Of a DNA stretch of 39,360 nt, positions 910 to 21,373 are shown in pieces. Source of the DNA: Acidobacteriota bacterium. Its GTDB lineage: Bacteria; Actinomycetota; Acidimicrobiia; Acidimicrobiales; RAAP-2. The position numbers were made by a program, and so were the translations under genes. The DNA is taken from positions 1,555 to 40,914 of the forward strand of contig JABBOA010000002.1 of assembly GCA_019352075.1 (NCBI GenBank). The letters run 5' to 3'. The notes below the pieces were generated by a model. The model had not been told where the DNA came from and did not search any database. It saw only the letters and a list, made by a program, of their open reading frames with translations. Each line of letters begins with the position of its first letter. Position 1 is the stretch's first letter.

Positions 910-950
910 CCCACGAAGTTACCAGCGTTGCGCGCGACCCTCGAGCCACC

Positions 951-1721: not shown

Positions 1722-1767
1722 CACCTCACCCTACCGGTCCTGCGCGCCACCCGAGGGCCGGGGTGAC

Positions 1768-1816: not shown

Positions 1817-1821
1817 AGTGC

Positions 1822-4305
1822 CTAACGACGACGCGGGCGCGGTCCGCGACGGTTCCCGCCATCATTCTCGGAGAACGAGGGACCGCCAGGTCCCAGATCA
1901 CCGATCTCGTCGGCCAACTCCGCTTCGAAGGCGGCCTCGAAACTTGAACTCGGGACGGAGGGCGCTGGCGCGCGCGACGGTCGCTCCGCACGCTCGGTGC
2001 GCTCACGACCACCTCGGTCCCCTCGGTCACTGCGCTCACCACGGTCACTGCGCTCACGACCACCACGGTCACCACGGTCACCACGGTCGCGCGGGGAGTC
2101 CTCGACCACCACGTCGGCGTACTCGCCCGCGAGTGACAGCGACACCTTGCCCTGGGGATCGATGTCGTCGACCCTGACCTCGAACGCTTGACCGAGTTCG
2201 ACAACGTCCTCGACCTGACCGATGCGCTTACCCCCATTGAGCGGTGACATCTTGGAGATGTGCAAGAGTCCGTCGCGACCCGGCAGGATGCTCACGAAGG
2301 CGCCGAACTTGGCGATGTTGACGACGCGACCCTGATAGACGGCGCCGATTTCGGCGGTGGGGGGATCGAGGATCAGCGATATCCGACGCTTGGCCTCTTC
2401 GACCGCACGGCCGTCCTTGGCCCCGATCGTGACCGTGCCGACGACGCCGTCGTCGTCGACCGCGATGTCCGCACCCGTCTCCTGCTGGAGGGTGTTGATG
2501 ACCTTGCCCTTGGGTCCAATGACCTCACCGATCTTGTCAATCGGAATCTCGATCGACACGATCTTGGGCGCGACGGCCGCGACCTCACTGCGGGGTTCGC
2601 TGATCGTTGACGTGATGACGTCGAGGATGGCCAGACGCGCCTCCTTGGCCTGGTGCAGCGCCTTAGCGAGAACGTCCGCGGGCAAGCCATCGATCTTGGT
2701 GTCGAGTTGCAACGCGGTGACCGCGTCCGCGGTACCGGCAACCTTGAAGTCCATGTCGCCGAAGGCGTCCTCGGCCCCCAGGATGTCGGTGAGCGTCGAG
2801 TACACGCCGTCCTCGTAGACGAGGCCCATCGCGATGCCCGCCACCGGTGCCTTGATGGGCACACCGGCGGCCATCAACGAGAGCGTCGAACCACAGACCG
2901 AGGCCATCGACGTCGAACCGTTGGACTGCAGGACGTCAGAGACGACGCGCAGGGTGTACGAGAACTCCTGCTCACTGGGCAGCACCGGCACCAGCGCGCG
3001 CTCGGCGAGCATGCCGTGACCGATTTCGCGACGCTTGGGGGCGCCCACGCGACCCGTCTCACCCACCGAATACGGCGGGAAGTTGTAGTGGTGCATGTAA
3101 CGGCGGAACTCGTCGGGGGTGATCGAATCGATCTGCTGCCTCATGCGCGGCATCCCGAGGGTCGTGACGTTGACCACCTGGGTCTCGCCGCGCTGGAACA
3201 GCGCCGAGCCGTGGGTCATGGGGAACAGGTCGATCGCGGCCGAGAGGGGCCGGATCTCGGAAGAGCTACGTCCGTCGATGCGCACGCCCTCGGCGGTGAT
3301 GCGCTTGCGCACGATCCTCTTGGTGATGGACTTGACCGCGGCCTTGACCTCGCTCAGACGATCGGCGAACTCGGGGAGCTGGTCGATGATGGACTTGGTC
3401 GCCACGTCCAGCGCCTCGCTGCGCGCAGTCTTGGTCGTCAGCTTGTTGGCCTCGGCCAGCGCCGCCTCACCCACCTCGCTCACGCGGGCCAGCACGTCGT
3501 CCTGGTAGTCATTGAACGCCTTGTACTCGATCATCGCAATCTCGCCACGCTGGGCGACGAACTCGCGCACCAATTCACGCTGCAGATTGATCGCCTCACG
3601 GATCCACAACTTCGACGCCTCCAGACCAGCCGCCAGGACCTCTTCGGAGACCTTGGGGGCGCCATCGGCGTACATCTCGAAGGAACCCTCGGTGCCGCCC
3701 GCTTCCACCATCATGATGGCGATGTCGGACTCGACCGAGTCCTCCAGCGCCCGACCGGCGACCACGAGTTCGAAGGTGGCGGCGTCGCCCTCGGCGAACG
3801 TCGGGTGCGGCGCCCACACGCCCTCAGTGGTGTACGCCAAGCGAACGGCGCCGATGGGGCCGTCGAAGGGGATCCCTGAGATCATCAATGCGGCCGATGC
3901 CGCGTTGATCGCGAGGATGTCGTGCGGATTCTCCTGGTCGGCGCTGAACACGGTCCCGACCACTTGGACCTCGTTGCGAAAGCCCTTGGGGAACGAGGGG
4001 CGTAGCGGTCGGTCGATGAGTCGACAGATCAGCACTGCCTGGTCCGAGATCTTGCCCTCGCGACGGAAGAACGAACCGGGGATCTTGCCAGCCGCGTAGG
4101 CCCGCTCCTCGATGTCGACGGTCAGGGGGAAGAAATCGATACCTTCGCGCACCGTGCGCGCGGCGGCGACGGTGGCGAGCAGGACGGTGTCACCCAATCG
4201 GGCGAGCACGGCTCCGTCGGCGAGTTGGGCCAAGTGGCCCGCCTCGAAACTCAGGGTCTTGTCAGTGCCCGTGATGGGACTGCTTACGCGGATTGCGTCA
4301 GTCAT
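1822..4305 (-). CDS. pnp: Polyribonucleotide nucleotidyltransferase (PNPase)
   Basis: 827 aa; duplicated RNase PH core, KH segment IGEVIGPKGKVINTLQQETGADI, S1 domain GAVYQGRVVNIAKFGAFVSILPGRDGLLHISKM; located after rpsO. Confidence 0.97.
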   Translation of the reverse strand: MTDAIRVSSPITGTDKTLSFEAGHLAQLADGAVLARLGDTVLLATVAAARTVREGIDFFPLTVDIEERAYAAGKIPGSFFRREGKISDQAVLICRLIDRPLRPSFPKGFRNEVQVVGTVFSADQENPHDILAINAASAALMISGIPFDGPIGAVRLAYTTEGVWAPHPTFAEGDAATFELVVAGRALEDSVESDIAIMMVEAGGTEGSFEMYADGAPKVSEEVLAAGLEASKLWIREAINLQRELVREFVAQRGEIAMIEYKAFNDYQDDVLARVSEVGEAALAEANKLTTKTARSEALDVATKSIIDQLPEFADRLSEVKAAVKSITKRIVRKRITAEGVRIDGRSSSEIRPLSAAIDLFPMTHGSALFQRGETQVVNVTTLGMPRMRQQIDSITPDEFRRYMHHYNFPPYSVGETGRVGAPKRREIGHGMLAERALVPVLPSEQEFSYTLRVVSDVLQSNGSTSMASVCGSTLSLMAAGVPIKAPVAGIAMGLVYEDGVYSTLTDILGAEDAFGDMDFKVAGTADAVTALQLDTKIDGLPADVLAKALHQAKEARLAILDVITSTISEPRSEVAAVAPKIVSIEIPIDKIGEVIGPKGKVINTLQQETGADIAVDDDGVVGTVTIGAKDGRAVEEAKRRISLILDPPTAEIGAVYQGRVVNIAKFGAFVSILPGRDGLLHISKMSPLNGGKRIGQVEDVVELGQAFEVRVDDIDPQGKVSLSLAGEYADVVVEDSPRDRGDRGDRGGRERSDRGERSDRGDRGGRERTERAERPSRAPAPSVPSSSFEAAFEAELADEIGDLGPGGPSFSENDGGNRRGPRPRRR
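2001..2092 (-). repeat. Degenerate codon repeat encoding the Arg/Gly/Asp-rich PNPase C-terminal tail
   Basis: Repeated cgg/tca/cca triplets; minus-strand translation DRGDRGDRGGRERSDRGERSDRGDRGGRERTER. Confidence 0.8.
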
Positions 4306-4320
4306 GGAATTGCTCCTTAT

Positions 4321-4361
4321 GCGGTTAGCAACACTCCGCCCGGATCCCAGTGAGCAACCGC
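4321..4361 (-). promoter_or_regulatory. Candidate stem-loop in the pnp 5' leader
   Basis: gcggtt...cact / agtg...aaccgc(c): outer 6-bp and inner 4-bp stems with an asymmetric internal loop, about 15 nt upstream of the pnp start and adjacent to AAGGAG. Confidence 0.45.
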
Positions 4362-4412
4362 CGCCTGACGCGACTGTTCTCCACTGGCCTCCGAGGTCTC
4401 GGATGTGTTGAT

Positions 4413-4433
4413 CACGTCGACGGCGTCGACGTG
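4413..4433 (-). terminator. Hairpin following rpsO
   Basis: Perfect cacgtcgac-ggc-gtcgacgtg, starting 7 nt past the rpsO stop; no T-tract. Confidence 0.5.
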
Positions 4434-4439
4434 GACCGG

Positions 4440-4697
4440 TTAGCGACGAATGCCGAGACGACCGATCAACTCGCGATAACGCTCCACGTTGCCACGCTGC
4501 ACGTAATCGAGCAGGCGGCGGCGCTGGCCAATGAGCTTCATGAGTCCGCGGCGGGTGTGGTGATCGCCCTTGTGAACCTTGAGATGCTCGGTGAGGTGCG
4601 AGATCCGGTCCGTCAGGATCGCGATTTGGACCTCGGGCGAGCCCGTGTCCGTTGCGTGAGCCTGATAGTCCTTGATGATCTGCTGCTTCTCAGCCAT
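4440..4697 (-). CDS. rpsO: 30S ribosomal protein S15
   Basis: [66 protein letters not shown]...; ORF track start (4754) trimmed to the canonical start. Confidence 0.97.
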
Positions 4698-4787
4698 AGA
4701 GTTTTGCCTTATGAGTCGGGGGTCCCGTTGCGAGCCGCCAACTGAACGACTCACACAATCAGCGTCGCTGACCGAACCTCTAGCCTA
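4698..4787 (-). promoter_or_regulatory. rpsO promoter and structured leader
   Basis: -10-like TAGGCT (4782-4787) overlapping the ribF stop; leader with TCAGC-gac-GCTGA and a 7-bp TGAGTCG/CGACTCA stem (4712-4718/4747-4753) next to the SD-like AAGG. Confidence 0.45.
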
Positions 4788-5730
4788 GCAGGACCGAGGA
4801 CGTGGGACTGAACTTCTCGAAGATTTCGAGACTTCGGGCCACGTCGCGCCCCATCTGGACGACGAGTTCCTCGAGGGTGGCGAAGGACGCCTCGCCGCGG
4901 AGTCGCTCCAAGAAGGCGACGTCGAGGCGTTGACCGTAGAGATCCCCCTCGAATCCGGGGAGATGCACCTCCACCAGGAGGGCGCCGTCCTCGTAGAACT
5001 GGGGCCGCGTCCCCACCGAGACGGCTCCGCATCGCCACTGACCGGACTCCAGGCGCACGGCGCCGGCGTAGACGCCCAGCGCCGGTAGTTGCTGGCGCTC
5101 CCCCGTGCCCACGTTCGCCGTCGCGAAGCCGATCTCACGTCCGCGCGCGTCACCGTGCACGACGGTGCCGCGCAGGACGAACGCCCGCCCCAGGATCTCC
5201 GCGGCCGCCGCCACGTCGCCCGCCGCGAGGCGCGCGCGCACCGCCGAAGAGCTGAAACGGCTCACGTCACCGTAGGTCGACGAGGCGTGGACGCGGAAAC
5301 CGTGACGGTCCCCCTCGCGCACGAGCAGCGCGATGTCGCCTTCGCGGTCGCGACCGAAGTGCACGTCGTCGCCCACCACCAGATCGATCACGCCCAGCTG
5401 ACGCACGAGCACGCGCTCCACGAACGACGCCGCCGACTCCCCCGCCGCGACGTGGTCGAAGCCCATGAGGCCGACCTGTTCGACACCGAGCTGCTCCAGC
5501 CCCTCGAGGCGCTGGTCGATGGTGCCGATCAGCAGCGGCGCCGTCGACGGGGACAGGACCAGCGCCGGGTGCGGATCGAAGGTGACGACGCTGGCGTGGG
5601 CGCCGCGTTCGTGGGCCCGACGCACGACCTCGGCGATGAGGGCCTGGTGGCCCCGGTGCAGTCCGTCGAACACCCCGAACGCCACGGCGCTCGGTCGCAC
5701 CAGTTCGGTGTCGAAATGGCTGAGCCTCAC
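4780..5730 (-). CDS. ribF: Bifunctional riboflavin kinase/FAD synthetase
   Basis: [44 protein letters not shown]; downstream of truB. Confidence 0.95.
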
Positions 5731-6617
5731 GCGGCGTTCTCCGGGGTCAACACGATCTCGGGCTTCCAGAGTTCGCCGCGGCGTCGCAGGACGCCGACCA
5801 GCGCGCCGGTGACGTCGAAGGCGGCAATCTCCGCGAGCGCGAAGGACTCGTCCAACGCCACCCGCTGGCCCACGCGCATCTTGGCCACTTGGCTCGCGTC
5901 GAGGACCGTTCGCTCCAGGCCTTGGACGAGGTGCGACGGCGGCTCCAGCGCCGTCACCACGTCCGTGAGGGACGCCAATTGCGCCAGTGTGCGCGCATCG
6001 TCCACCTCGTGCGCACCGCTGGAGATACGTCGCAACGCTGTCAGATGCCCCACGGTGCCCATCTTCTCAGACAAGTCGCTGAGCAGGACACGGACGTACG
6101 TCCCGACCGAGCAGGTCACGTCGAAGCGCCACCGGTCGGGCACGTCGGTCGCCGCCAGCGCGAAACGCTCGATCACGATCTCGCGCGGTGCGCGTTCGAC
6201 CTCGACACCCTCGCGGGCCAGTTCGTGTAGTCGTCGACCGCCCACCTTGAGCGCCGACACCATGGGGGGTACCTGGCTCTGGCGGCCGATCATCGTAGCC
6301 GCGAGGGCGTTGATCCGCGCCAGGTCGACGTCCGGCACGCCGGCCACCGCGGTCACCGTCCCGTCGGCGTCGAGCGAGTCGGTGGCCACCCCGAGGCGAA
6401 CTTCACCGGTGTAGCGCTTCACCTGGTCCTGGGCGAAACGCAGCAATCGAGTCGAGGGCCCCACCGCGACCAGCAACAGACCCGTCGCCATCGGATCCAA
6501 CGTCCCCGCGTGCCCGACGCGGCGCTCACCGAACAACTTGCGCACCTGCGCCACCACGTCATGGCTCGTGAGCCCGCCGTGCTTGTCGATCAGCAGCAGG
6601 CCACTACTCGTCGTCAT
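5727..6617 (-). CDS. truB: tRNA pseudouridine(55) synthase
   Basis: GLLLIDKHGGLTSHDVV, VGHAGTLDPMATGLLLVAVG; GTGA overlap with ribF. Confidence 0.95.
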   Translation of the reverse strand: MTTSSGLLLIDKHGGLTSHDVVAQVRKLFGERRVGHAGTLDPMATGLLLVAVGPSTRLLRFAQDQVKRYTGEVRLGVATDSLDADGTVTAVAGVPDVDLARINALAATMIGRQSQVPPMVSALKVGGRRLHELAREGVEVERAPREIVIERFALAATDVPDRWRFDVTCSVGTYVRVLLSDLSEKMGTVGHLTALRRISSGAHEVDDARTLAQLASLTDVVTALEPPSHLVQGLERTVLDASQVAKMRVGQRVALDESFALAEIAAFDVTGALVGVLRRRGELWKPEIVLTPENAA

Positions 6618-6963
6618 GACGCTGTCGGCGCAGGACGTCCTCGACGGCGTTGCCGCTCGCGATGGCCGGATCGGCGACGAAGGTCAGTTTGGGCGTGCGC
6701 TTGAGCCGGGTCTGCGCGTTGACCGAACCCTGGATCTGCGCGCGGCGTTGCTCGAGCGCCGCCGCGCGCTCGTCGTCCAGCGAATCCAAGTACACCATCG
6801 CCTGGCGAAGGTCGGCCGTCGTCTCGACGCCCGTCACGGTCAAGAATCCCAACCGCTCATCGACGTCGCCCAAGCGCAGGATCTCCTCGGAGATGACCTC
6901 GCGAAGTATCTGGTTGACCCGTGCCGAACGCGGGTAGGGATGGTGACTCGAGGAATGGGCCAT
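6604..6963 (-). CDS. rbfA: Ribosome-binding factor A
   Basis: RVNQILREVISEEILRLGD..., 119 aa; canonical position between infB and truB. Confidence 0.93.
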   Translation of the reverse strand: MAHSSSHHPYPRSARVNQILREVISEEILRLGDVDERLGFLTVTGVETTADLRQAMVYLDSLDDERAAALEQRRAQIQGSVNAQTRLKRTPKLTFVADPAIASGNAVEDVLRRQRHDDE

Positions 6964-6966
6964 GGG

Positions 6967-9633
6967 TTAGGCCGTTCGCGGAATCTCGCGCTCTTCGAAC
7001 GTCTCGATGATGTCGCCGTCCTTGAGGTCCTGGTAATCCGAGAGTCCGATGCCGCACTCGAAGCCCGACTGCACCTCTCGCGCGTCGTCCTTGAAACGGC
7101 GCAGGGAGGTGATCGAACCCTTCCAGATGATGGTGCCCTCGCGCAAGAATCGCACCTTGGAACCGCGGGTGATGACGCCCTCTCGAACGAAGCAACCGGC
7201 GATCGCGCCGATCTTGGGTACGCGGAAAACTTCGCGAACTTCGGCCTCCCCGGTGACCACTTCCTCGTAGACCGGTGAGAGCAAACCGAGCATCGCCGCC
7301 TCGATCTCCTCGATGAGTTTGTAGATGATCTCGTAAGTGCGGATCTCCACGCCCTCGGACTCGGCGAGTTCGCGACTACGCCGGTCGGGGCGCACGTTGA
7401 ACCCGATGATGGTGGCGGTCGACGCCTTGGCCAATTGCACGTCGTTCTCGGTGATGCCCCCCACGCCACGGTGCACGATGACCAGCTTGACGTCGTCGCG
7501 TTCGAGCTTGCGCAACGATTCGGTGCACGCTTCGAGCGAGCCTTGCACGTCGGCCTTCAAGACGACGTTGAGCGTCGCTGTCTCACCGCGCTGGATCTGC
7601 TCGAAGAGGTCTTCGAGTCGCGCGCCCGACGCCGACGCCACCGGTTGGTGGCCGACCAAACGCACTCGTTGTGCCCGCGCCTCGGCGAGCGAGCGGGCGT
7701 TGCCCAGGTCCTGGGCGACGCGCATCTCGTCGCCCGCGAACGGCGGTTCCGAGAAGCCGAGGATCTGCACGGGTGTCGAGGGACCCGCGGACTTGATCTG
7801 CTTGCCCTGGTCGTTGATGAGAGCCTTCACCTTGCCGAAGGCCGCCCCGGCGACCACCGGGTCACCGACGCGCAACAGACCTGACTGCACCATTACGGTG
7901 GCCACGGGACCGCGCCCCACCTCGAGGTTCGCTTCGAGGACCGTCCCCGTCGCACGACCGGTGGGCCGTGCGGTGAGTTCGGCGAGCTCGGCCACGAGGA
8001 GCACCTGCTCGAGCAAGTCCTCGATGCCGAGTCCCTGCAAGGCGGATATCTCGACGGTGATGGTGTCGCCGCCCCACTTCTCGGGTACCAGACCGTGCTC
8101 ACTCAACTGCTGCAGGACCCGATCAGGATTGGCGTCCTCCTTGTCAATCTTGTTGACCGCGACGATGATCGGCACGTCGGCGGCCTTGGCGTGATTGATG
8201 GCCTCCACCGTCTGGGGCATCACGCCGTCGTCGGCGGCCACCACCAAGATGACGATGTCGGTCACCTTGGCCCCACGCGCGCGCATGGCGGTGAAGGCCT
8301 CGTGACCCGGGGTGTCGAGGAACGCGATGGACTTGCCGTGCCACAGCACCTGGTAGGCACCGATGTGCTGGGTGATGCCACCGGCTTCTCCCGCCACCAC
8401 ATTGGTCTTGCGGATCCGGTCCAGCAATTTGGTCTTGCCGTGGTCGACGTGACCCATGACGGTCACCACCGGCGGACGCGTGGTGGTCGCGATGTCTTCG
8501 TCCATATCCTCTTCGTCGAAGAAACGCGCCAGGAGCGCCGCCTCTTGCTGCTCACCCGGGTCGACCAGCTTCACCGAGGCACCGACTTCCGCGGCGTAGA
8601 GCTCGATCATGTCGTCGCTGAGTCCCTGGACCGCGGTCACGATCTCTCCCTGGAGGAAGAGGAATCGGATGATGTCCGCCGCCGAACGGTTCAGCTTGGG
8701 GCCGACGTCCTTCGCGGTGGAACCGCGCTCGATGATGATGTCACCCTCGGGCACCGGTGCCGAACTCGGCTGCCAGGTCGTCATTTGGGTCGGCTCGAGC
8801 TCCTCGACGTTACGACGGCGACGTCGCGTGGTCTTACGCTGAGAACCGCGCGGTCCGCCCGATCCACGATTCGCGGGTCCACCGCGACCCGGTCCCGACG
8901 CGGGGGCGCCCGTCGTCGAACCCGGGCGCGCACCGAATCCGCCACCACCGGGACGAGACGGCCCACCCGTGCGTGCGGGCCCTCCGGTCGAGGGTCGCGC
9001 ACTCATCGGGCGAGGCGAGCCAGTGCCGGGGCGACTCGAGGGCGCACCGCCGGGGCCACCCGGACGACGCATGCCCGGCGGGGGTGGGATCGGACGACCC
9101 GAGGGACTCATCGGGCGTCCGGGCGGCGGCGGGATTGGACGCCCACTCTGCGACAGCGGCGGGCGATTCGCCGCGGGGGCTTCGGCGCCGTCGCCGGTGG
9201 GTCGCTGCGTGGGTCGGATGGTGGTGGGTCCTTCGCTCGGCGTCACGCGCGGCGCGGGCGGCTTGGGCGCCACCGCGGGACGACTGCGAACGACGCGCGG
9301 CGCCTCCGCGGCGGGCGCGGGCGACTCCTCGACCACCGACGTCGTGGCGACCGCGGGTGCGGGCGTCGCGGGGACGTGCACCTCGGCCGGCTCGGCCGGC
9401 GTCGACTTAGCGGGACGGGCACCCTTGGCCCTGGTCGGCTCCTCGGGCGCCACTTCACGACGAAGGCCCTCATTGTCGACCTTGCGACGGATGCGGTCGG
9501 CCTGGGCGTCCTCAATGGAGGCGGACGGACTCGAGGCCCCAATGCCCAACGTCTGGGCGAGCGCGAGCAACTCCTTGCTCGTCAGACCAAGCTCTTTCGA
9601 GAGCTCGTGTACCCGGATCTTCTTCTGCGCCAA
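6967..9633 (-). CDS. infB: Translation initiation factor IF-2
   Basis: [40 protein letters not shown]; Pro/Gly/Arg-rich linker. Probable TTG start at 9633 ([15 protein letters not shown]) with SD-like AGGGAA; the ORF track opens at 9672. Confidence 0.95.
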
Positions 9634-9678
9634 AACATTCCCTTGCTTCGTGTGCTCGCAGTCCGCAAGCACAATTCT

Positions 9679-9936
9679 CTATTCTTCCACAACTACAACA
9701 GTTTTCGAGCGCCGCACCATCTCGCTCAGCGCGACGGCGTCGTTTTCGTCGAGAGCGCACCTCAGGGCCCGCGACGCCCGCGCCGGATTGACCCCCGCCG
9801 CGCACTCACCCTCGCGGCACCACCAGACCCCGCGACCAGCGCCGTGACCGAGGTACCATCCCGTTCGCGGTGAACGACCCGCGCGCTGCAGATCGGTCCC
9901 TGGACGGCGTTGACGACACACCACGCAGGTCCTCAC
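9679..9936 (-). CDS. ylxR: YlxR/RnpM family (DUF448) RNA-binding protein
   Basis: MRTCVVCRQRRPGTDLQR...GRGVWWCREGEC; between nusA and infB. Confidence 0.88.
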   Translation of the reverse strand: MRTCVVCRQRRPGTDLQRAGRSPRTGWYLGHGAGRGVWWCREGECAAGVNPARASRALRCALDENDAVALSEMVRRSKTVVVVEE

Positions 9937-9941
9937 CGGGA

Positions 9942-11171
9942 TTATGCGTCGTCCCCCGTGACATCGACCTCGAGCACTTCAGCCGACGTGCCGTCCTCGT
10001 CCATGACGATTTCGTCCACCACGCGGATCTCGTGCCCCTGGTCGTCGGCCACCACCTTCACCGTCTCTTCGATGAGCGTCACCCCGTCGGTGAACACCTC
10101 GGTCACGGGGTCGAGGTCGTGGGCGTGCTCGTCGTGCACCAGCGTCACGACTTCGTCGACCACGATCCCCTCCTCGGTCCAGACTTCCTCGACGACCTCG
10201 TCCTCGCCCTCGTTCTCGGAGCGAATGTCGATTCGCCAACCGGTGAGTCGCGCGGCGAGTCGGGCGTTCTGGCCCTCCTTGCCAATGGCCAGCGAGAGTT
10301 GCTGGTCGTGAACGATCACCGTCGCGATGCCCTCTTCGTCGTTGAGTTGGACCTCGCGCACGCGTGCCGGGGCCAGGGCGGCCTGGATGAACTCGATCGG
10401 GTCGTCGCTGTAGGGAACGACGTCGATTCGCTCGGAGCGAAGTTCGTTGGTGATATTGCGAACCCGTGAGCCTCGCGCCCCCACGCACGCGCCCACCGGA
10501 TCGACCATCGTGTCGTTGGACGCCACCGCGATCTTGGAGCGGTGTCCGGGCTCTCGCGCCAGTGCCTTGATCTCGACGATGCCGTTGGCGATCTCGGGCA
10601 CCTCGATCTCGAAGAGCTTGGCCACCAGTGCGGGATGGGTGCGACTGACCACGATCTGGGGTCCCTTGTTGGTCTTGCGCACCTCCACGATGTAGACCTT
10701 GACCCTCGCCCCGTGCTCGTAGCGTTCGAAGGCGATCTGCTCGGCCTGGGGCAGCAATGCCTCCACCCGACCCAGGTCGAGCAGGGTGTAACGGTTGTCG
10801 TTCTGCTGGACGGTGCCCGAGACGATGTCGCCCTCGCGATTGGCGAACTCTTCGTACATCTGGCGGCGCTGGATGTCGCGGATCAACTGCATGAGCACCT
10901 GTTTGGCGGTCTGGGCGGCGATGCGCCCGAAGTCCTCGGGCGTGGCGTCCCATTCGCGGGTGACGTTGCCGTCCAAGTCGAGTTCGAGTCCCCACACCTT
11001 GATCTCGCCGGTCTCGGGATTGATCTCGACTTCGGCGTCCTCGGCGGAATCGGGACGTCGCTTGTAGGCCGCCAATAAGGCGTTGGCCAAGGCAATCAGC
11101 AATTCCCCCTCGTCGATGTTCTGGTCACGCGCAATCTGTCCGAGGGCTTCTAAAAATTCGAAATTTGCCAT
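9942..11171 (-). CDS. nusA: Transcription termination/antitermination factor NusA
   Basis: NFEFLEALGQIARDQNID, S1 segment, DPVGACVGARGSRVRNITNELRSERIDVV KH motif; long acidic C-terminal tail. Confidence 0.96.
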   Translation of the reverse strand: MANFEFLEALGQIARDQNIDEGELLIALANALLAAYKRRPDSAEDAEVEINPETGEIKVWGLELDLDGNVTREWDATPEDFGRIAAQTAKQVLMQLIRDIQRRQMYEEFANREGDIVSGTVQQNDNRYTLLDLGRVEALLPQAEQIAFERYEHGARVKVYIVEVRKTNKGPQIVVSRTHPALVAKLFEIEVPEIANGIVEIKALAREPGHRSKIAVASNDTMVDPVGACVGARGSRVRNITNELRSERIDVVPYSDDPIEFIQAALAPARVREVQLNDEEGIATVIVHDQQLSLAIGKEGQNARLAARLTGWRIDIRSENEGEDEVVEEVWTEEGIVVDEVVTLVHDEHAHDLDPVTEVFTDGVTLIEETVKVVADDQGHEIRVVDEIVMDEDGTSAEVLEVDVTGDDA

Positions 11172-11174
11172 GTC

Positions 11175-11669
11175 TTAGCCTTTCTTGCTCGTGGTTGTGG
11201 AGGGTTTTCCCCGCGAGGGCGACGGCTTGGCCTCGCCACCCCACTGAAACACCGTGCGTGCGCGTTCGATCGACTCGATCCGCACGTGGACTTCGCCGGC
11301 CGACTGGTCCTCGAGCATCACCGTGGTCGCCGTGACGTCGCGTAACGTCCCCTCCAGGCGCCGGGTCGGCTCGTCCGCGCGGCGCTCTCGAAGGGTGACC
11401 ACCTCGCCCACGGCCGATCGAAAATGCTCCACGGTACGCAGCCGCCGCTCGAGTCCGGGACTCGACACGTCCAGCGTGAAACGACCGGGAATCGGGTCGT
11501 TCAGGTCCAACCACTCCGAGATTGCCCGGTTCGCCCTGGTCAATTCCTCTAAATCGACGCCGCCGGCGCGGTTCACCGTCACGTTCAAGGTCCCCTTGGT
11601 GAGCTCTAGGTCGTAAAGTTCAAGTCCCAGGTTGGATAAGAGCGAGCGCAATGGGGTCTCTAGTTCCAT
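11175..11669 (-). CDS. rimP: Ribosome maturation factor RimP
   Basis: LGLELYDLELTKGTLNVTVNRAGGVDLEELTRANRAISEWLD...RFTLDVSSPGLERRL; upstream of nusA. Confidence 0.94.
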   Translation of the reverse strand: MELETPLRSLLSNLGLELYDLELTKGTLNVTVNRAGGVDLEELTRANRAISEWLDLNDPIPGRFTLDVSSPGLERRLRTVEHFRSAVGEVVTLRERRADEPTRRLEGTLRDVTATTVMLEDQSAGEVHVRIESIERARTVFQWGGEAKPSPSRGKPSTTTSKKG

Positions 11670-11708
11670 GCCTCTCCTCTCTATGCCACCAGTGTCGGGA
11701 CAAAGAAA

Positions 11709-11733
11709 AAGCGCGGGCCCGAGGCCCGCGCTT
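11709..11733 (-). terminator. Intrinsic terminator in the rimP leader, or proS terminator; candidate attenuator
   Basis: 11-bp stem aagcgcgggcc/ggcccgcgctt with 3-nt loop; minus strand continues ttttcttt; lies between a predicted promoter (11772-11800) and the rimP start (11669). Confidence 0.8.
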
Positions 11734-11771
11734 AAACGAGTCCAAACGTCCTGAGCGGACTGTCGCGCTCA

Positions 11772-11800
11772 ATTGTAGCAGTTGGGCCCTCCAGAGACAA
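11772..11800 (-). promoter_or_regulatory. Sigma70/SigA-type promoter for rimP-nusA-infB
   Basis: Minus strand TTGTCT - 17 nt - TACAAT, predicted +1 near 11765. Confidence 0.7.
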
Positions 11801-11855
11801 CCGTGTCCTCGAGGGGTCACCCTCCCCCTTGACGCCTCGTGACGAGGGTAAAGGT

Positions 11856-13268
11856 CTAATAGGACCGGGCGATGATGGCCATCAGGCCCGATTCACGCTC
11901 GTTCTCGGGCATGGTGCCGTCGGATCGCTGCAGGCAGCGAACGGTCATGGCCTCCGCCTTGAGGCGCGCCTCACCCTCCTCGCCCACCTCGTGCCACGCG
12001 ACGCGCGCGAAACCGGTCTGGGCGGCCTCGATGGCCCGATCCAAGTCGGGCACCGTGATCGTGTGCGCATCGCGGAAGTCGCGGGCCGCGCGCCACATGT
12101 CGCCCTGGATGTCGTCGACCAGTGACTGCGCGAGGGCGGGCGCCTCGGCGACGGGCACCGCGGCCTTCTCGCCCGTGTCACGGCGCACGACGGTCACCAG
12201 ACCCTGGACCAGGTCGCGAGGTCCCACCTCGATGCGCACGGGCACGCCCTTCACCTCCCAGTCCGTCACCCGTCGGCCGAAACTCCCGCGCTTGCCGTCG
12301 TCCACCAGTGCGCGCAGCCGCGCCGCGGTCAGTTCGCCGTGCAGGGCCTGGCAGGCCGTCAACACCGTCTCGTCCTCGCGCACGGCGATCACCACGACCT
12401 GCGTCGGCGCCAGCGCGGGCGGCACCACCAGTCCACGATCGTCGCCGTGCGCCATGATGAGCCCCCCCACCAGTCGCGTCGACGCGCCCCAGGAGGTGGT
12501 GTAGCACAATTGCGCCTGGCCCTCCTCGCTCTGGTAGAAGATGTCGAAGGCCCGAGCGAAGTTCTGGCCCAGTTCGTGCGAGGTGGCCATCTGCAATGCC
12601 TTGCCGTCGCGCATCATGCCCTCGCAGGTCATGGTGTTGGTGGCCCCGGCGAAACGCTCACTCGGCGGCTTGATACCCAAGAAGGTGGGGACGGCCAGGA
12701 CCTTTTCCAAGAAGTCGTTGTAGACCTCCATATGGATCTTCATCGCGTAGTCCGACGCGTCACGCGCGCTCGCGTGGGCGGTGTGACCCTCCTGCCACAA
12801 GAACTCCGACGAACGCAGGAACAGTCGAGGACGTAACTCCCAGCGCACCACGTTGGCCCACTGATTCAACAGCAAGGGTAGATCACGATAACTCTGGATC
12901 CACTTGGCCATGAATTCGCCGATGACGGTCTCCGACGTCGGACGTACCACCACCGGCTCGGCGAGCTTCTCGCCGCCAGCGTGGGTCACCACCGCGAGTT
13001 CGGGGCTGAAGCCTTCGACGTGTTCGGCCTCCTTCGAGAGATAGCTCTCGGGGATGAAGAGGGGGAAATACGCGTTCTGCGCCCCGGCGAGTTTGATCCG
13101 CTCGTCGATAGCGGACTGGATCCGTTCCCAGATGGCGTAGCCGTAGGGGCGGATCACCATGGTGCCGCGCACGGGACCGTTGTCGGCCATCTCCGCCTTG
13201 GCCACCACGTCCTGGTACCACTGCGGGAAATCTTCGTTCTGGGGGGTCAAGACACTGGGACCGGCCAC
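11856..13268 (-). CDS. proS: Prolyl-tRNA synthetase, archaeal/eukaryotic-like class
   Basis: RGTMVIRPYGYAIWERIQ, VVRPTSETVIGEFMAKWIQSYRDLPLLLNQWANVVRWE, C-terminal ...IARSY. ORF opens at ATG 13280; an SD-like AGGAG favours GTG 13268. Confidence 0.93.
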   Translation of the reverse strand: MAGPSVLTPQNEDFPQWYQDVVAKAEMADNGPVRGTMVIRPYGYAIWERIQSAIDERIKLAGAQNAYFPLFIPESYLSKEAEHVEGFSPELAVVTHAGGEKLAEPVVVRPTSETVIGEFMAKWIQSYRDLPLLLNQWANVVRWELRPRLFLRSSEFLWQEGHTAHASARDASDYAMKIHMEVYNDFLEKVLAVPTFLGIKPPSERFAGATNTMTCEGMMRDGKALQMATSHELGQNFARAFDIFYQSEEGQAQLCYTTSWGASTRLVGGLIMAHGDDRGLVVPPALAPTQVVVIAVREDETVLTACQALHGELTAARLRALVDDGKRGSFGRRVTDWEVKGVPVRIEVGPRDLVQGLVTVVRRDTGEKAAVPVAEAPALAQSLVDDIQGDMWRAARDFRDAHTITVPDLDRAIEAAQTGFARVAWHEVGEEGEARLKAEAMTVRCLQRSDGTMPENERESGLMAIIARSY

Positions 13269-13322
13269 GTTTCTCCTCATCGACGTGGAACGAGCCTAGT
13301 GAATCGCCACGGGGCGCTGCGT

Positions 13323-14552
13323 TCAGTGCTCGTCGCGTCGGCGAATGCGCTCGATGATCTGCGTCGCGTTGTTCGCGTCGGCGCCCTTCGCGTCCAACAG
13401 GGCGGCCCGGTCGGCGGCCGCGGCGGCCGGCGCCGTCTCGTCGCGGGCGGCGAGGCGGGCCTCGATACCCTCCTTGGCGATCTTGCGGGCCTCGTCCACC
13501 AGCGCCTCGACCATCTCGTCTTCAGGGACCACCCGAATGATCTCACCTCGGATGAAGAGATGTCCCCGGTGCTTGCCCGCCGCGATGCCGAGGTCCGCGT
13601 GGCGGGCCTCTCCGGGTCCGTTGACCACGCAACCCATCACCGCCACCTGGATTGGGATGTCGAGTTCGGCGAGCGCCGCCTGCGCCTGGGTCGCCACAGC
13701 GATCACGTCCACCTCGGCGCGGCCACAACTGGGACAAGCGATGAGGTCGAGTCCCGATCGCTCGCGCAGGCCCAGAACTTCGAGCAACTGACGGCCCGCC
13801 TTCGCCTCCTCCACCGGATCGGCGGTCAGCGAATAGCGCAGGGTGTCGCCGATACCCTCGGCCAGCAGCGTCGCGATGCCCGCGGTCCCCTTGAGCAAGC
13901 CGCCGGGCAGCGGGCCCGCTTCGGTCACGCCGAGGTGCAGCGGATGGTCGAAGGTGTCAGCGGCCAGGCGGTACGCCGCGATCATCGTCGCGACCGACGA
14001 CGCCTTGACCGAGATCTTGACGTCGTCAAAGCCGACCTCCTGGAAATAGGCGAGTTCGACGCGAGCCGACTCCACGAGGGCCTCGGGGGTCGCACCACCG
14101 AAACGCTCGTAGATGTCGGGGTGCAGGCTGCCGGCGTTCACGCCGATACGAATCGGCACTCCGCGATCGCGCGCCTCACTGGCGACCAGTCGGATCTCTT
14201 CGGGCTTGCGAAGGTTCCCCGGATTGAGACGCAGCCCGTGCACGCCCGCGTCCAGGGCCGCCAGTGCCATCTCCACGTGGAAATGGATGTCCGCGACGAT
14301 CGGCACCGGTGAGCGCGGCACGATCTGGGCGAGCCCCTCGGCGGCGGCACGCTCGTTGCACGTGCACCGCACGATGTCCGCGCCGGCTCCGGCCAGGGCG
14401 TAGATCTGGGCGAGCGTGGCCTCGACGTCGGCGGTCTTGGTCGTCGTCATCGACTGGACGGAGATCGGCGCGTCACCTCCCACCTTCACCGAGCCAACGG
14501 CGATCTGACGCGTGAGGCGACGAGGGGACAAGGAACTGGCAGTGACATCCAC
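13323..14552 (-). CDS. ispG: (E)-4-hydroxy-3-methylbut-2-enyl-diphosphate synthase
   Basis: RRLTRQIAVGSVKVGGDAPISVQSMTTTKTADVEAT, CPSCGRAEVDV, GCVVNGPGEARHADLGIAAG. Confidence 0.96.
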   Translation of the reverse strand: MDVTASSLSPRRLTRQIAVGSVKVGGDAPISVQSMTTTKTADVEATLAQIYALAGAGADIVRCTCNERAAAEGLAQIVPRSPVPIVADIHFHVEMALAALDAGVHGLRLNPGNLRKPEEIRLVASEARDRGVPIRIGVNAGSLHPDIYERFGGATPEALVESARVELAYFQEVGFDDVKISVKASSVATMIAAYRLAADTFDHPLHLGVTEAGPLPGGLLKGTAGIATLLAEGIGDTLRYSLTADPVEEAKAGRQLLEVLGLRERSGLDLIACPSCGRAEVDVIAVATQAQAALAELDIPIQVAVMGCVVNGPGEARHADLGIAAGKHRGHLFIRGEIIRVVPEDEMVEALVDEARKIAKEGIEARLAARDETAPAAAAADRAALLDAKGADANNATQIIERIRRRDEH

Positions 14553-14590
14553 CCCACCATTCTGCCGTGCGCGAGGACGCGCGTGATCAC

Positions 14591-15856
14591 CTAATTGAAG
14601 GGATTGGTGATGGGGTAGACGATGTCCAAGTACAGGGTGAAGGCGAACAGCACGGCCAGCACCCCGACGAAGGCCACCACGATCGGGGTCAACTTGTTGA
14701 TATCCGCGTGATACGGCGCCCCGCGTCGACCACGTTGACGGATCCGCTCGTAGGTCGCGACGGCCACGTAACCCCCGTCCAGGGGCAGCATCGGCAGCAT
14801 GTTCATCACTCCGACGAAGACGTTGAGGGTGATCAAGATGTAGAGGAAGACCTGTAGGTTCGACTGCGCCGCCTGGTCCGCCAGACGCACCACGCCGACA
14901 ATGGACACCGGGCGCGTCGTCTGAGACGTGGTCGACTTCGCCGCCGACGGCGTGACGACCTGGTGCAGGAGGTTGGCGAACTCCCCGGGCGAGAACACGT
15001 GGACCAGGGCGTGTGCGGCCTGGTCGACGGTGCGCGCCACCATGGTCACCGAAGCGGGAATCGCAGCGAGGTAACCCGAGCGCACCGTGGGATTGGTGAG
15101 TTGGATCCCCAGGAGGCCCACTGGTTGGGGACCGCTCACCTCGGGTTTGCCGTTCACCAGGACCCGTCGGCCGTCGATCGGGGTCGCGCGCAGCACCACG
15201 TCACGTCCCGCGCGACGAACCGTGAGGGAGATCTCATGACCGGCGTTGGCGTGGATGGTGGCGTCGAGGATCGCCATACCGTTGACCCGGTGTCCGTCGA
15301 TGCTCACGATCTCGTCACCGATTCGTAGTCCGGCCAGCTGACCCGCCGTCTGGGCGTGGCCCTGCCAGTGCGTGAAACCGTCGATGCTCACCCGCTGGGC
15401 GTCGGCATGGCCGACGAACACCAGCGCCCCGTAGGCGAGCAGGAGCGCCATCACGACGTGCATCAATGAACCGGCGGATGCGAAGAGGACCTTGCGCGGG
15501 TACGACGCGGACCGGTAGGTCCGCTTCTCGTCGTCGGGTTCGATCTTGTCGTACCAGGTCATCCCGGGCACTTTGACGTAGCCACCCAGCAGGAGCGCCC
15601 GGATGCCGTAGCGGGTCTCACCGCGCGTCGTGGACCAGAGGACGGGTCCAAAACCGACGAAGAAATCGGTCACCTCCATCCCCGCGCGTTTGGCGGTGAT
15701 GAAGTGACCGAACTCGTGCCCCATGACCATGGCGATCACCAGGAACAACACCAGGGGCAACGCCCATCCCCAGAGCCAGGTCATGGCGGCGATGACCACG
15801 ACCGATCCCACCAACAACGTGTAGACCGAGGTGCGCGACGACTCGTTTTGCATCAC
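14591..15856 (-). CDS. rseP: Site-2 protease (M50) RseP/Rip1-like membrane metalloprotease
   Basis: GHEFGHFITAKRAGMEV zinc motif, PDZ-like segment, NMLPMLPLDGG; between dxr and ispG. Confidence 0.9.
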   Translation of the reverse strand: MMQNESSRTSVYTLLVGSVVVIAAMTWLWGWALPLVLFLVIAMVMGHEFGHFITAKRAGMEVTDFFVGFGPVLWSTTRGETRYGIRALLLGGYVKVPGMTWYDKIEPDDEKRTYRSASYPRKVLFASAGSLMHVVMALLLAYGALVFVGHADAQRVSIDGFTHWQGHAQTAGQLAGLRIGDEIVSIDGHRVNGMAILDATIHANAGHEISLTVRRAGRDVVLRATPIDGRRVLVNGKPEVSGPQPVGLLGIQLTNPTVRSGYLAAIPASVTMVARTVDQAAHALVHVFSPGEFANLLHQVVTPSAAKSTTSQTTRPVSIVGVVRLADQAAQSNLQVFLYILITLNVFVGVMNMLPMLPLDGGYVAVATYERIRQRGRRGAPYHADINKLTPIVVAFVGVLAVLFAFTLYLDIVYPITNPFN

Positions 15857-17016
15857 TGGGGCAGGTTAGCGTGAGTGATTCGCCGCGCCATCGCGTCGTT
15901 CTCGACCACCGCGTCGAGGTCGACGAGGGGGTCATCGACGTAGTCATCCATGGTGCGCGACACCAGGTCCACGATGTCCGACCACCCGATGCGCTCCTCG
16001 AGGAACGCGTCGACGCACACCTCGTTGGCCGCCGACAACCACGCCGCCGCCGCGCCGCCGCGCCGCGCCGCGGCGTAGGCCAGGTCCAGTGCCGGAAAGG
16101 CGTCGCGGTCCGGCGGTTCGAAATCGAGCCGCAGCGACGTCGTGAAGTCGAGTCGTCCCCAGTGATGGGCCATTCGCTCCGGGGCCCCCAGGCAGTAAGC
16201 GATGGCCAGGCGCATGTCGGGTCGCGACAGCTGGGCCAGCACCGCGCCGTCGACGTACTCGACCATCGAATGGACGATGGACTGTGGGTGCACGACGACG
16301 TCGATGCGCTCGACCTCGATCCCGAAGAGGGCGGAGGCCTCGAGCACCTCGAGCCCCTTGTTCATGAGGGTCGACGAGTCGATGGTGATCTTGGGCCCCA
16401 TGCGCCACGTGGGGTGGGCCAACGCGTCGCGTTTGCTCGCGCGCGACAGTTGGGTGCGACTCCAGCCGCGAAACGGCCCCCCCGACGCGGTGAGGAGCAG
16501 GCGCGACACGTCGGGGTGCCCCACGTCGCTCGATCCCGCCAGACATTGATGGATGGCGCAGTGCTCGGAGTCGACGGGCAGGATTTGCGCACCCGGCGTG
16601 GCGCGGGCGTGGGCCACCACCGGGGCGGCGGCGATGAGTGACTCCTTGTTGGCCAGCGCCAGGCGCGCCCCGGCCTCGAGCGTCGCGAGGGTGACCGGCA
16701 GTCCGGCAAAACCCATGACGGCGTTGACGACCACGTCGACGTCCGCGCAGAGCTCCCGTAACCCCCGCTCGCCCACGACGACGTCCACGTCGTTGGCCAC
16801 CAGTGCCGTGAGGCGTCGCCGGTCGCCGTCCTCGTTCACGCCCACCCGACGGACGCCAAACTCGTTGACCAGGGCCGCGAGTTCCTCGATCCGCCGACCT
16901 GCGGACAGTGCCACGAGTTCGAAGCGATCGGGCTCGCGTCGTAGGACCTCGATGGTCTGGGTGCCGATCGAACCCGTCGCCCCCATGAGCGCGACGCGCG
17001 TGCGTGAGACACCCAT
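15853..17016 (-). CDS. dxr: 1-deoxy-D-xylulose 5-phosphate reductoisomerase
   Basis: VALMGATGSIGTQTIEVLR, ANKESLI, PVDSEHCAIHQCL, TASGGPFRGW, KITIDSSTLMNKGLEVLEA. Confidence 0.96.
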   Translation of the reverse strand: MGVSRTRVALMGATGSIGTQTIEVLRREPDRFELVALSAGRRIEELAALVNEFGVRRVGVNEDGDRRRLTALVANDVDVVVGERGLRELCADVDVVVNAVMGFAGLPVTLATLEAGARLALANKESLIAAAPVVAHARATPGAQILPVDSEHCAIHQCLAGSSDVGHPDVSRLLLTASGGPFRGWSRTQLSRASKRDALAHPTWRMGPKITIDSSTLMNKGLEVLEASALFGIEVERIDVVVHPQSIVHSMVEYVDGAVLAQLSRPDMRLAIAYCLGAPERMAHHWGRLDFTTSLRLDFEPPDRDAFPALDLAYAAARRGGAAAAWLSAANEVCVDAFLEERIGWSDIVDLVSRTMDDYVDDPLVDLDAVVENDAMARRITHANLPQ

Positions 17017-17018
17017 GG

Positions 17019-18317
17019 CTAGCTCAACGACAGCAGGTGCGTCATGAAGTACATGGTGGGCAGGGCAAACAGGAGTCCGTCCACGCGGTCCAGCATCCCT
17101 CCGTGGCCCGGCAGCAGGTGTCCGAGGTCCTTCACACCCAACGTGCGCTTGAACATCGACTCGAACAAGTCACCCATCGGCACGACGACGCACAAGGCCA
17201 GTGCGCACTCCAGGCCGTGCGACATCGTCCACGGATGGATCCTCGGCAGGATGAGGGCGCCCGCCAGCAACGTCAAGATGGTGCCGCCGATCGTGCCCTC
17301 GATCGTCTTGTTGGGCGACAGTCGTGTGTTGAGTGGGCGTTTGCCCACCCAACGTCCGATGAAGAGTGCGCCGGTGTCATTGGCCACCGTCAAGATGATC
17401 GCGCCCAGAAGGTAGGCCAGCCCGTGGCGGTGAGTGAACGTGTGTGGCGAGGCCATCAGCAGCGCGAAGGATCCCAGGACGCCGACCCAGGCGAACACGA
17501 AGATCGTCGCGCCCACGCCGTCAACGACGTCGATCATCTTCTCCGCGTTGAGGTACCAGACGAAGGAGAACATCACCAATAGTGCGGTCACCACCGCGGT
17601 CGCACCGAGTCCCTTGTCGTACACGGCGACGCACAGTGTCACCACCGCCACGAGTCCGAGGATGGTCGCGGGATGCGCACCCACCGCGCGAAAGCCCGCG
17701 AAGGCCTCGCCCGCGGCCAGCGTCAACGCCGCGACGACCAGTACCGTCACCGCGATGGGACCCAGGTAGAAGATCACGAGCACCACCGCGGCGAGAAGGA
17801 CCCCGGTGAGCGTGGCGACCGACACGCTGCGCGTCGAGCCCTTTCGCACGGCGCGACCCGACAAGGGGTCTTCGCGCAGTGTGCGCCGCGTACGGTGCGC
17901 TCGCGTCAGGGCGGGTCGCGGCGACGCGTCCAGGATCTCCTCATCGGTGACCGTCGACTCGGGGGTGAACTCCCAGGGACGCAGGTCCTCCTCGGTCTTG
18001 TCCACGGCCAGGAGCGACGCGTCGAACTGCTCCTCGTGCGCCACCCAGTCAGCCTCACCCTCGCGCCAAGCGGGCGCGGGAATGGCGGCCCACGGGTCCA
18101 CCGCGTCGGCGCTCTCTCGCGCGACCACGATCGGTACCTGACCCGTCGGGGCGTCGGTCCAGTGGGGCAGGAGCGTCTCGGGGTCGATCAGTGGGGCCAC
18201 GTCGCCCGCCGCGCCGACCACGTCGGCCCCGGTGATCGTGACGCGCGGGTCGCTGGAGCTCACCACCGGGACCTCACCGGTGGGCACGTCAACCAGGGCG
18301 TCGTCGTCAGACTTCAA
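17019..18317 (-). CDS. cdsA: Phosphatidate cytidylyltransferase with N-terminal extension of roughly 150 aa
   Basis: Multi-TM C-terminal half with CDP-DAG synthase signature LSPNKTIEGTIGG...FKRTLGVKDLGHLLPGHGGMLDRVDGL. TTG start with GGAG SD, overlapping the frr end. Confidence 0.92.
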   Translation of the reverse strand: MKSDDDALVDVPTGEVPVVSSSDPRVTITGADVVGAAGDVAPLIDPETLLPHWTDAPTGQVPIVVARESADAVDPWAAIPAPAWREGEADWVAHEEQFDASLLAVDKTEEDLRPWEFTPESTVTDEEILDASPRPALTRAHRTRRTLREDPLSGRAVRKGSTRSVSVATLTGVLLAAVVLVIFYLGPIAVTVLVVAALTLAAGEAFAGFRAVGAHPATILGLVAVVTLCVAVYDKGLGATAVVTALLVMFSFVWYLNAEKMIDVVDGVGATIFVFAWVGVLGSFALLMASPHTFTHRHGLAYLLGAIILTVANDTGALFIGRWVGKRPLNTRLSPNKTIEGTIGGTILTLLAGALILPRIHPWTMSHGLECALALCVVVPMGDLFESMFKRTLGVKDLGHLLPGHGGMLDRVDGLLFALPTMYFMTHLLSLS

Positions 18318-18876
18318 GTAGCTCCTGCTCCTTGTGCGAGAGGAGGCCGTCCACGACCGCCACCTCGTCCTGGGTCATCTTGTCCAGCACCTTCTCCAAG
18401 TGTTCGAGGTCGTCCTGGGACAGCCCCTGGTCCTTCTCGAGGTTCTCGAGCTCCTGGCGCGCATGACGACGCACGCCGCGCAAGGCCACCTTGCCCTCTT
18501 CCGCCTTGGTCCGGACGATCTTGACGAAGGACTTGCGCCGCTCCTCGGTGAGCGCGGGGAAGGCGAGGCGGATGACAACGCCGTCGTTGGAGGGATTGAG
18601 CCCGAGATCGGCGTTCGTGATGGCCTTTTCGATCATCGCCATCGCGCCCTTGTCGAACGGCGACACCACGAGCAGTCGAGGCTCGGGCACCGAGAAGTTC
18701 GCCAGTTGCTTCAGCGGCGTCTCGGCACCGTAGTAGTCCACCAGGAGGTTCTCCACCAGGGCGGAGGACGCGCGCCCCGTGCGTACGTTGGCGAATTCGA
18801 TCCTCACGTGCTCGATGGCCTTGGCCATCCGCTCGCGCGCATCGTCCATCACCAGATCGACCATTTCGTTGTCCAT
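18307..18876 (-). CDS. frr: Ribosome recycling factor
   Basis: ARERMAKAIEHVRIEFANVRTGRASSALVENLLVDYYGAETPLKQLANFSVPEPRLLVVSPFDK. Confidence 0.97.
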   Translation of the reverse strand: MDNEMVDLVMDDARERMAKAIEHVRIEFANVRTGRASSALVENLLVDYYGAETPLKQLANFSVPEPRLLVVSPFDKGAMAMIEKAITNADLGLNPSNDGVVIRLAFPALTEERRKSFVKIVRTKAEEGKVALRGVRRHARQELENLEKDQGLSQDDLEHLEKVLDKMTQDEVAVVDGLLSHKEQELLEV

Positions 18877-19586
18877 TAGTTCACCAGCGTACCGACCGCG
18901 TCACCCTTGAGGGCGCGGTCGAGATTTCCTCGGGCCATGAGGTCAAAGACCCGAATAGGTATTGCGTTGTCCTTGCAGAAGGTGATGGCGGTCATGTCCA
19001 TGACGCGTAGGTCCCGGGCGATCACGTCGTCGAAGAGGACCTCGTCGAACCTGACGGCCGCCGCGTTCTTGCGCGGATCCTCGCTGTAGACGCCATCCAC
19101 CCCTCCGTGGGTTCCCTTGAGAACCATATCGGCCTCAATCTCGGCGGCGCGCTGTACCGCGGCGGTGTCAGTCGTGAAGTAGGGATTGCCCATGCCCGCC
19201 GCGAAGATGACGACGCGACCCTTCTCGAGGTGGCGGACCGCCCGACGGCGAATGTAGGGTTCGGCCACCTGATCCATGCCAATCGCCGACATCACACGGG
19301 TGGCGCACCCGTGCGACTCGATCGCGTCCTGCAGCGCGAGGGCGTTGATCACCGTCCCGAGCATGCCCATGATGTCGGAGTTCGCCCGGTTCATTCCGGC
19401 CATCGCTCCCGTCGCGCCGCGCCAGATGTTGCCACCACCCACGACGACCGCGAGTTCGAGGCCCCCGCGAGCCATCGCGTCAGCGATGACGGTCGCGAGG
19501 AAATCCACGGTGCTCGCGTCGATGGTCTCGTCGCTGGCCGATGAGGCGAGCGCCTCACCCGACAGTTTCAAGACCACGCGACTCAC
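18876..19586 (-). CDS. pyrH: UMP kinase
   Basis: VVLKLSGEALAS, VVGGGNIWRG, ADMVLKGTHGGVDGVYSEDPRKNAAA. Confidence 0.96.
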   Translation of the reverse strand: MSRVVLKLSGEALASSASDETIDASTVDFLATVIADAMARGGLELAVVVGGGNIWRGATGAMAGMNRANSDIMGMLGTVINALALQDAIESHGCATRVMSAIGMDQVAEPYIRRRAVRHLEKGRVVIFAAGMGNPYFTTDTAAVQRAAEIEADMVLKGTHGGVDGVYSEDPRKNAAAVRFDEVLFDDVIARDLRVMDMTAITFCKDNAIPIRVFDLMARGNLDRALKGDAVGTLVN

Positions 19587-19589
19587 GGA

Positions 19590-20387
19590 CTACTCCCCGA
19601 TGACGACTTGGGCGTAGGCGGTGATCGTCGCGCCACCGAGTAACTGGGTGATGGTCTGCTTCTCGTCCTTGACGTAACTCTGTTCGAGCAACACGCGCTC
19701 CTTGAACCAACCGTTCAGTCGGCCCTCGATGATCTTGTCCAAGGCGGCGGCGGGCTTGCCCTCATTGAGGGAGATCTCCTCGATCGTCTTGCGCTCAGCC
19801 TCGATCTCCTCGGCGGGCACGTCGTCACGCGAAAGGTACTGGGGTTTGGCGAAGGCGATGTGGACGGCGATCTCGTGCGCCAGTTCGTCCGAGCCCCCCT
19901 TGACCACGATGGCGACGGCGTTGACGCCGCGACCAGCCTGCGTGTGGTTGTAGGTATCCACTACTTCACCCTCACCCGCGACCAGGCGGTAGACGCGTCC
20001 GACCGAGATGTTCTCCTTCAACGTCGTGAGCATCGTCTCGATGTTCTCCTCGAAGTGCGCCACTGCAGCTTCGCCCTCGTCGCACACGCGCACGGCGATG
20101 TCGTCCACCAGTGAGGTGAATTCATCGGATTTGGCGACGAAGTCGGTCTCGCAACGCATTTCGACGATGGCCGCCAGGTTGCCGTTGCGCACGACCGCTA
20201 CGGCGCCCTCGCCGGCCTCACGATCGGCACGCTTGGCCGCCGAGGCCTTGCCCTGGACGCGCAACCACTGCACGGCGTCCTGCACGTTGCCCTCGTTCGC
20301 TTCGAGCGCCTTCTTGGCGTCCATCAGGCCGACGCCCGTGGTCTTGCGAAGCGACATGATGTCCTTGGGGTTTGCGGTGTATGACAC
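19590..20387 (-). CDS. tsf: Elongation factor Ts
   Basis: LRKTTGVGLMDAKKALEANEGNVQDAVQWLR, EMRCETDFVAKSDEF. Confidence 0.97.
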   Translation of the reverse strand: MSYTANPKDIMSLRKTTGVGLMDAKKALEANEGNVQDAVQWLRVQGKASAAKRADREAGEGAVAVVRNGNLAAIVEMRCETDFVAKSDEFTSLVDDIAVRVCDEGEAAVAHFEENIETMLTTLKENISVGRVYRLVAGEGEVVDTYNHTQAGRGVNAVAIVVKGGSDELAHEIAVHIAFAKPQYLSRDDVPAEEIEAERKTIEEISLNEGKPAAALDKIIEGRLNGWFKERVLLEQSYVKDEKQTITQLLGGATITAYAQVVIGE

Positions 20388-20418
20388 CTTGACTTCTCCT
20401 CTTGTAGTCGAGCGTTGA

Positions 20419-21198: not shown

Positions 21199-21311
21199 GA
21201 ATATTTCCTTCCGTTCGGTTGATCAACCCCGTGGTGCACTCCGAGGAGCGACCGTACGAAACCACGTGGTGTGTCTGCGCCCTCCCACTCTGGGAGAGCC
21301 AAATCAGCCTA
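21199..21311 (-). promoter_or_regulatory. rpsB promoter and about 100-nt structured leader
   Basis: -10-like TAGGCT (21306-21311); hairpins ctccca-ctc-tgggag (21282-21296), cgtggt/accacg (21230-21235/21261-21266), palindrome ggttgatcaacc (21217-21228). Confidence 0.45.
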
Positions 21312-21373
21312 GTCGAACCAGCCGGTCGTCGACGATGGGCGATGGCGACACCGGTGACGACCGTCGCGCGTGG

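Follow-up and report, generated by a model that had tools for sequence, protein, structure and literature searches.

A putative rimP-leader-type transcription attenuator with a lineage-specific 5' element upstream of the rimP-nusA-infB operon in Acidimicrobiales

Between the genes proS and rimP, the 39,360-nt stretch of DNA analysed here (hereafter the window) carries on its minus strand a GC-rich hairpin with a T-rich tail, located downstream of a candidate promoter and shortly before an operon encoding NusA. The question raised by this locus is whether the hairpin ends transcription arriving from proS or belongs to a leader controlling entry into the rimP operon. Gene order, structure and comparisons with relatives favour the latter, namely a transcription attenuator of the rimP-leader type acting on rimP-nusA-infB, a reading drawn from sequence to which we assign a probability of roughly 0.8. 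All genes concerned lie on the minus strand. The first one after the terminator is rimP (11175..11669; Pfam RimP_N, 2.1e-15), followed by nusA (9942..11171; Pfam NusA_N and NusA-like KH), ylxR (9679..9936; Pfam YlxR, 3.1e-8) and infB, encoding IF2 (6967..9672; Pfam IF-2, 1.3e-42). The genes rbfA, truB and ribF (4780..6963; Pfam RBFA, TruB_N and FAD_syn) come next with tight spacing and, from this packing, probably belong to the same operon. The upstream neighbour proS (11856..13280, assigned by Pfam) stands outside the system.

The candidate promoter (11772..11800, minus strand) consists of TTGTCT (11800-11795), a 17-nt spacer ending in TGC, as in an extended -10, and TACAAT (11777-11772), from which we infer a start site near 11765-11763 on the minus strand. 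It is the sole minus-strand sigma-70-like match in the window. Two sigma-70-like matches were found in positions 1..20000 against 1.3 expected from shuffles, and none in positions 19400..39360 against 1.7 expected, so that the promoter match taken alone is not significant. The 30-nt 5' leader element ACAGTCCGCnnAGGACGTTTGGACTCGTTT (11734..11763, minus strand), which is lineage-specific and near-invariant within the genus, includes the short repeats AGTCC (11761-11757), GGAC (11751-11748) and GGACT (11743-11739). It is followed by the terminator hairpin AAGCGCGGGCC-TCG-GGCCCGCGCTT (11709..11733, minus strand), a stem of 11 bp, nine of them G-C, with a predicted energy of -22.0 kcal/mol (z -4.2), and this is the lone strong terminator-like site in the window, the other matches listed having 5-7 pairs. 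The U tract TTTCTTT (11702..11708, minus strand; identity 0.65, its distal part varying among relatives) ends 32-33 nt before the rimP ATG (11669), and this interval contains the Shine-Dalgarno-like sequence AGAGGAGAGG (11671..11680, minus strand). The promoter, the 11-bp GC-rich hairpin, the tail and the interval of about 33 bp to rimP are thus all present as the preliminary description had laid them out, and so are the repeats; as to the tail, two T of TTTTTCTTT pair with AA at the base of the stem.

This organization corresponds to the rimP-leader, defined as a terminator preceding rimP-nusA-infB, with a GGGc...gCCC stem located 4-130 nt from the gene (Naville & Gautheret 2010, PMC2965389). 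It was put forward in 2010 as the attenuator with the widest distribution, NusA being its likely effector, and showed no larger conserved element in that study, where Actinobacteria gave few terminator predictions (PMC2965389). The locus shares with it an intrinsic terminator before the same operon, with a G-rich 5' arm, a C-rich 3' arm and a U tract: the stem GCGCGGGCC-TCG-GGCCCGCGC followed by TTTTTCTTT displays the GGGC...GCCC signature, and its position, 5' of an operon whose gene order is supported by Pfam and at the distance given above, falls within the published range. It differs from the published motif by its very short promoter-to-terminator distance, the hairpin being predicted to begin at about +31, and by the near-invariant 5' element of this genus. 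The Rfam family RF01770 (rimP) has the same gene context; its model of 102 positions, searched directly, gave no match in the window or in the source genome and none over its cut-off in 20 relatives, and it exceeded this cut-off in just 1 of 14 control genomes. As RF01770 gave no match, we file the leader under the published rimP-leader motif rather than under this family. Searched against Rfam at gathering and permissive thresholds, the window returned nothing at threshold, riboswitch and leader families included; weak matches to small-RNA families, such as suhB with 27 bits (threshold 41), were discarded as matches to a GC-rich hairpin. Our literature search retrieved no report of the rimP-leader in Acidimicrobiales or mycobacteria.

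To assess conservation of the leader, rimP was located in 61 genomes, and named relatives were retrieved with NusA; the latter are MAGs that mostly bear the label Acidimicrobiaceae or Acidimicrobiales, a good number of them having palsa or bog isolate names. Calculated over 75 distinct genus sequences, the mean pairwise identity reaches 0.90 for the 5' element and 0.92 for the hairpin, against 0.43 for the fourfold sites of rimP and 0.65 for the RimP protein, and since both leader parts are far more conserved than these fourfold sites, the leader locus stands above chance. Conservation in the same set is moderate for the -10 (0.78), poor for the -35 (0.59), and falls to 0.46 in the promoter spacer, 0.46 between the terminator and the Shine-Dalgarno sequence and 0.25 in the first 50 alignment columns upstream. 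Pairing within the helix of the hairpin is preserved in 97% of cells, two pairs showing compensatory changes, and the -10 lies 36-39 nt from the hairpin in nearly all loci of the genus. Of the 99 genus genomes, 93 gave a match to a covariance model of the leader; rimP was not detected in five of the others, and in the last one a contig end lies 56 nt from the rimP start, so that the leader occurs in 93/93 genomes where the site is assembled.

The GGGc...gCCC stem is retained in the genus and more widely. A GGG/CCC terminator directly 5' of rimP was found in 24/26 loci from other genera of the family (about 0.1 expected from shuffles) and in 18/29 loci of a phylum-wide draw (about 0.1 expected), and a GGG/CCC stem together with a T run occupies this position in 24 of the 32 loci from other families of the order (0.10 expected). 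A -10 hexamer, counted when at least 5 of 6 positions matched, lies 22-45 nt 5' of the hairpin in 25/46 loci from other genera of the order and phylum, whereas shuffles gave 3.1 (sd 1.6), and from this enrichment we conclude that promoter and terminator are co-conserved. The preliminary description had made its reading depend on the promoter being conserved in relatives along with the hairpin, which is what both the spacing within the genus and the enrichment outside it reveal; they likewise bear out its placement of the terminator between a conserved putative promoter and rimP.

Several loci of this wider sample depart from the common layout. Four loci of one family in the phylum draw (L193, L196, L200 and L205, family f70) have an inverse rimP terminator with a C-rich 5' arm and a G-rich 3' arm, AGCCCCTC..GAGGGGCT, an arrangement similar to the inverse CCCg..cGGG terminator described in certain Gammaproteobacteria. 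At locus L044 (G050), the -10 TATACT ends just 9 nt before the terminator stem, placing the hairpin at the extreme 5' end of the RNA, where it may act as a stability element. Locus L199, from a 9.2 Mb genome (G416), is without a terminator-like hairpin 5' of rimP, and the leader seems to have been lost in some members of the phylum with large genomes, as in this one.

Because the conservation of the 5' element equals that of the terminator, it needs an explanation of its own. With a model restricted to this element, the 61 genus genomes gave a single copy each, in every case at rimP, and a search for a second copy in these genomes gave just chance-level matches outside rimP; its exact pattern is likewise single-copy in the source genome. 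The next closest copy, in the genus of G511 (E 5e-11), keeps GUCC-GCAA-GGAC, and in the other genera of the family the leader has diverged, GCTGTCCGGTC...GGACCTCGTnGAAGCG. At loci L026, L126, L127 and L218 (the last from G511), the element has a small first loop of four bases, GCAA or GUAA (GNRA type); that all three cases with such a loop, two lineages of the genus and G511, are of GNRA type hints weakly at formation of the first small hairpin. Beyond this, when 43 leaders from other genera were compared with shuffles, no excess was seen for upstream folding and general stem formation (mean z +0.34) or for complementarity between leader and terminator arm (mean z +0.57); in sister genera, two candidate upstream helices did not beat shuffles and RNAalifold kept the terminator alone. 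The pairings GUCC/GGAC (P1), AGUCC/GGACU (P2), GUCCGC:GCGGGC (AT) and GGUC/GACC (H) were either invariant or showed covariation not above shuffles. A further pairing suggested by single-sequence folding, GUUUGGA/UUUAAGC (P3), was rejected, being broken by variants in relatives.

Since there is no excess of folding or complementarity and no covariation in these comparisons, sequence-specific recognition of the 5' element by a protein is favoured. A possible resemblance of GGACUCGUUUAAG to the RNA bound by NusA in M. tuberculosis plays no part in this preference. We tentatively consider that the element could represent a new protein- or ligand-binding sensor on the nascent RNA, controlling the rimP-nusA-infB terminator beyond generic NusA-stimulated termination in this Acidimicrobiales lineage, a possibility that we regard as real but short of probable. 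Recognition could alternatively take place on DNA, the element being an operator just past the start site that a repressor binds independently of the terminator. The dyad AGTCC-GCnnA-GGAC with its direct repeat GGAC, and a strong sequence conservation without strong folding, would suit such a site; we nevertheless hold it unlikely, considering that the dyad halves stand 4 to 6 nt apart, a variation unusual for a rigid DNA site, and that the genomes contain no second copy.

The repeats had initially been described as competing, and their presence and conservation are established, as is their capacity for three pairings that overlap one another. As parts of a switch they fare less well, no pairing among them having covariation beyond that of shuffled controls. 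In a three-way arrangement, GUCCGC, situated near the 5' end, would have two possible partners: pairing with GGAC/GGACU would leave the terminator free, and pairing with GCGGGC in the terminator arm would form an antiterminator. GUCCG(C/U) can indeed pair with (G)CGGGC in 17/17 of the most diverse genus sequences examined and this pairing would explain the invariant GC after GUCC, but the very invariance gives no covariation, a 6-bp antiterminator would be far weaker than the -22 kcal/mol terminator, and the folding comparisons in other and sister genera speak against it. As no alternative conserved pairing with covariation that would exclude the terminator was found, such a switch seems to us quite improbable.

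It could also be envisaged that promoter and terminator together form a separate small-RNA gene, whose RNA of about 60 nt acts in trans, the operon being fed by read-through. The near-invariance of the RNA from about +1 to the end of the stem in more than 90 species, which is more than a terminator alone needs, would fit this scenario; against it, the element always lies at rimP, in leader position, in all genomes examined, its terminator part is the known rimP-leader found over the phylum, and no small-RNA family of Rfam reached threshold, which makes a function in trans very improbable.

The reading that the preliminary description had kept as its alternative, an ordinary terminator ending proS with a coincidental promoter upstream and rimP served otherwise, agrees with the arrangement in most of the genus, where a codirectional proS ends 140-210 nt upstream and the hairpin would also stop proS read-through, but it is contradicted by leaders that are intact without an adjacent proS and is scarcely tenable: the hairpin remains at rimP where proS lies 0.3-3.6 kb off or was not detected in the vicinity, conservation at constant spacing extends over the -10 and the leader but not over the sequence closer to proS, and the gap between hairpin and rimP leaves no room for another promoter. 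Two loci are particularly telling in this respect. At L046, in a one-contig genome, the nearest upstream gene codes for a helix-turn-helix protein and runs on the opposite strand, and at L083 proS and the rimP promoter are separated by an oppositely oriented DUF4232 gene; as these upstream genes are divergent, the hairpin, in an intact leader at both loci, cannot serve a codirectional upstream neighbour. The position of the hairpin is therefore tied to rimP and not to the end of proS. The insertion at L083 has a counterpart at L109, both involving a secreted-looking gene on the opposite strand. At L106 and L047, a different, longer-looking proS with a weak match to that of the window lies upstream of rimP, an apparent replacement of proS at the same locus.

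According to the attenuator reading, RNA polymerase would start near 11765, synthesize a leader of about 30 nt and meet the intrinsic terminator between about +31 and +63. Some or most of the transcripts would stop as an RNA of about 60 nt and the rest would read through into rimP-nusA-ylxR-infB-rbfA-truB-ribF. Transcripts of rimP must cross the hairpin, because just 33 nt, including the ribosome-binding site, separate the tail from the gene; as the operon encodes essential factors, substantial read-through would be required and the terminator would thus act as a valve. The likeliest and most economical agent setting this valve is, by analogy, NusA itself, more NusA leading to more termination and hence to less operon expression, and we lean towards NusA as the main effector. 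The 5' element would probably add a recognition site on the nascent RNA for NusA or for another protein, which is a guess. NusA aids suboptimal hairpins most, and the strong, perfectly paired stem observed here argues against a need for help from a factor. Regulatory 5' terminators also tend to be weaker (PMC2965389). Conversely, many relatives have an interrupted distal U tract, a reported trait of NusA- and NusG-dependent terminators (PMC8060035), and these sequences would fit a factor-stimulated termination. A close precedent is B. subtilis, where NusA controls its own synthesis by promoting termination within the nusA leader (Mondal et al. 2016, cited by the 2025 review PMC12288461), as the preliminary description had noted; there too the terminator lies in the leader of the same operon and gates nusA, in a leader of about 180 nt (PMC2965389) compared with about 95 nt here. 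The likeness to E. coli, where NusA represses its own nusA-infB operon (cited in PMC2965389), concerns self-repression and the operon, whereas mechanism and leader differ.

Judged on its sequence, the locus is a putative built-in brake of a known type, the rimP-leader, extended at its 5' end in a lineage-specific way; the literature search gave no report of this leader for the lineage. The rimP-leader is now seen over Acidimicrobiales and much of Actinomycetota. If NusA sets the valve, the self-limitation of NusA via a leader terminator would be common to distant phyla. The tight spacing of promoter and terminator makes the predicted terminated RNA of about 60 nt easy to test, and the genus-specific 5' element, conserved far above its surroundings in more than 90 species, provides a definite starting point in the search for the factor reading this leader.
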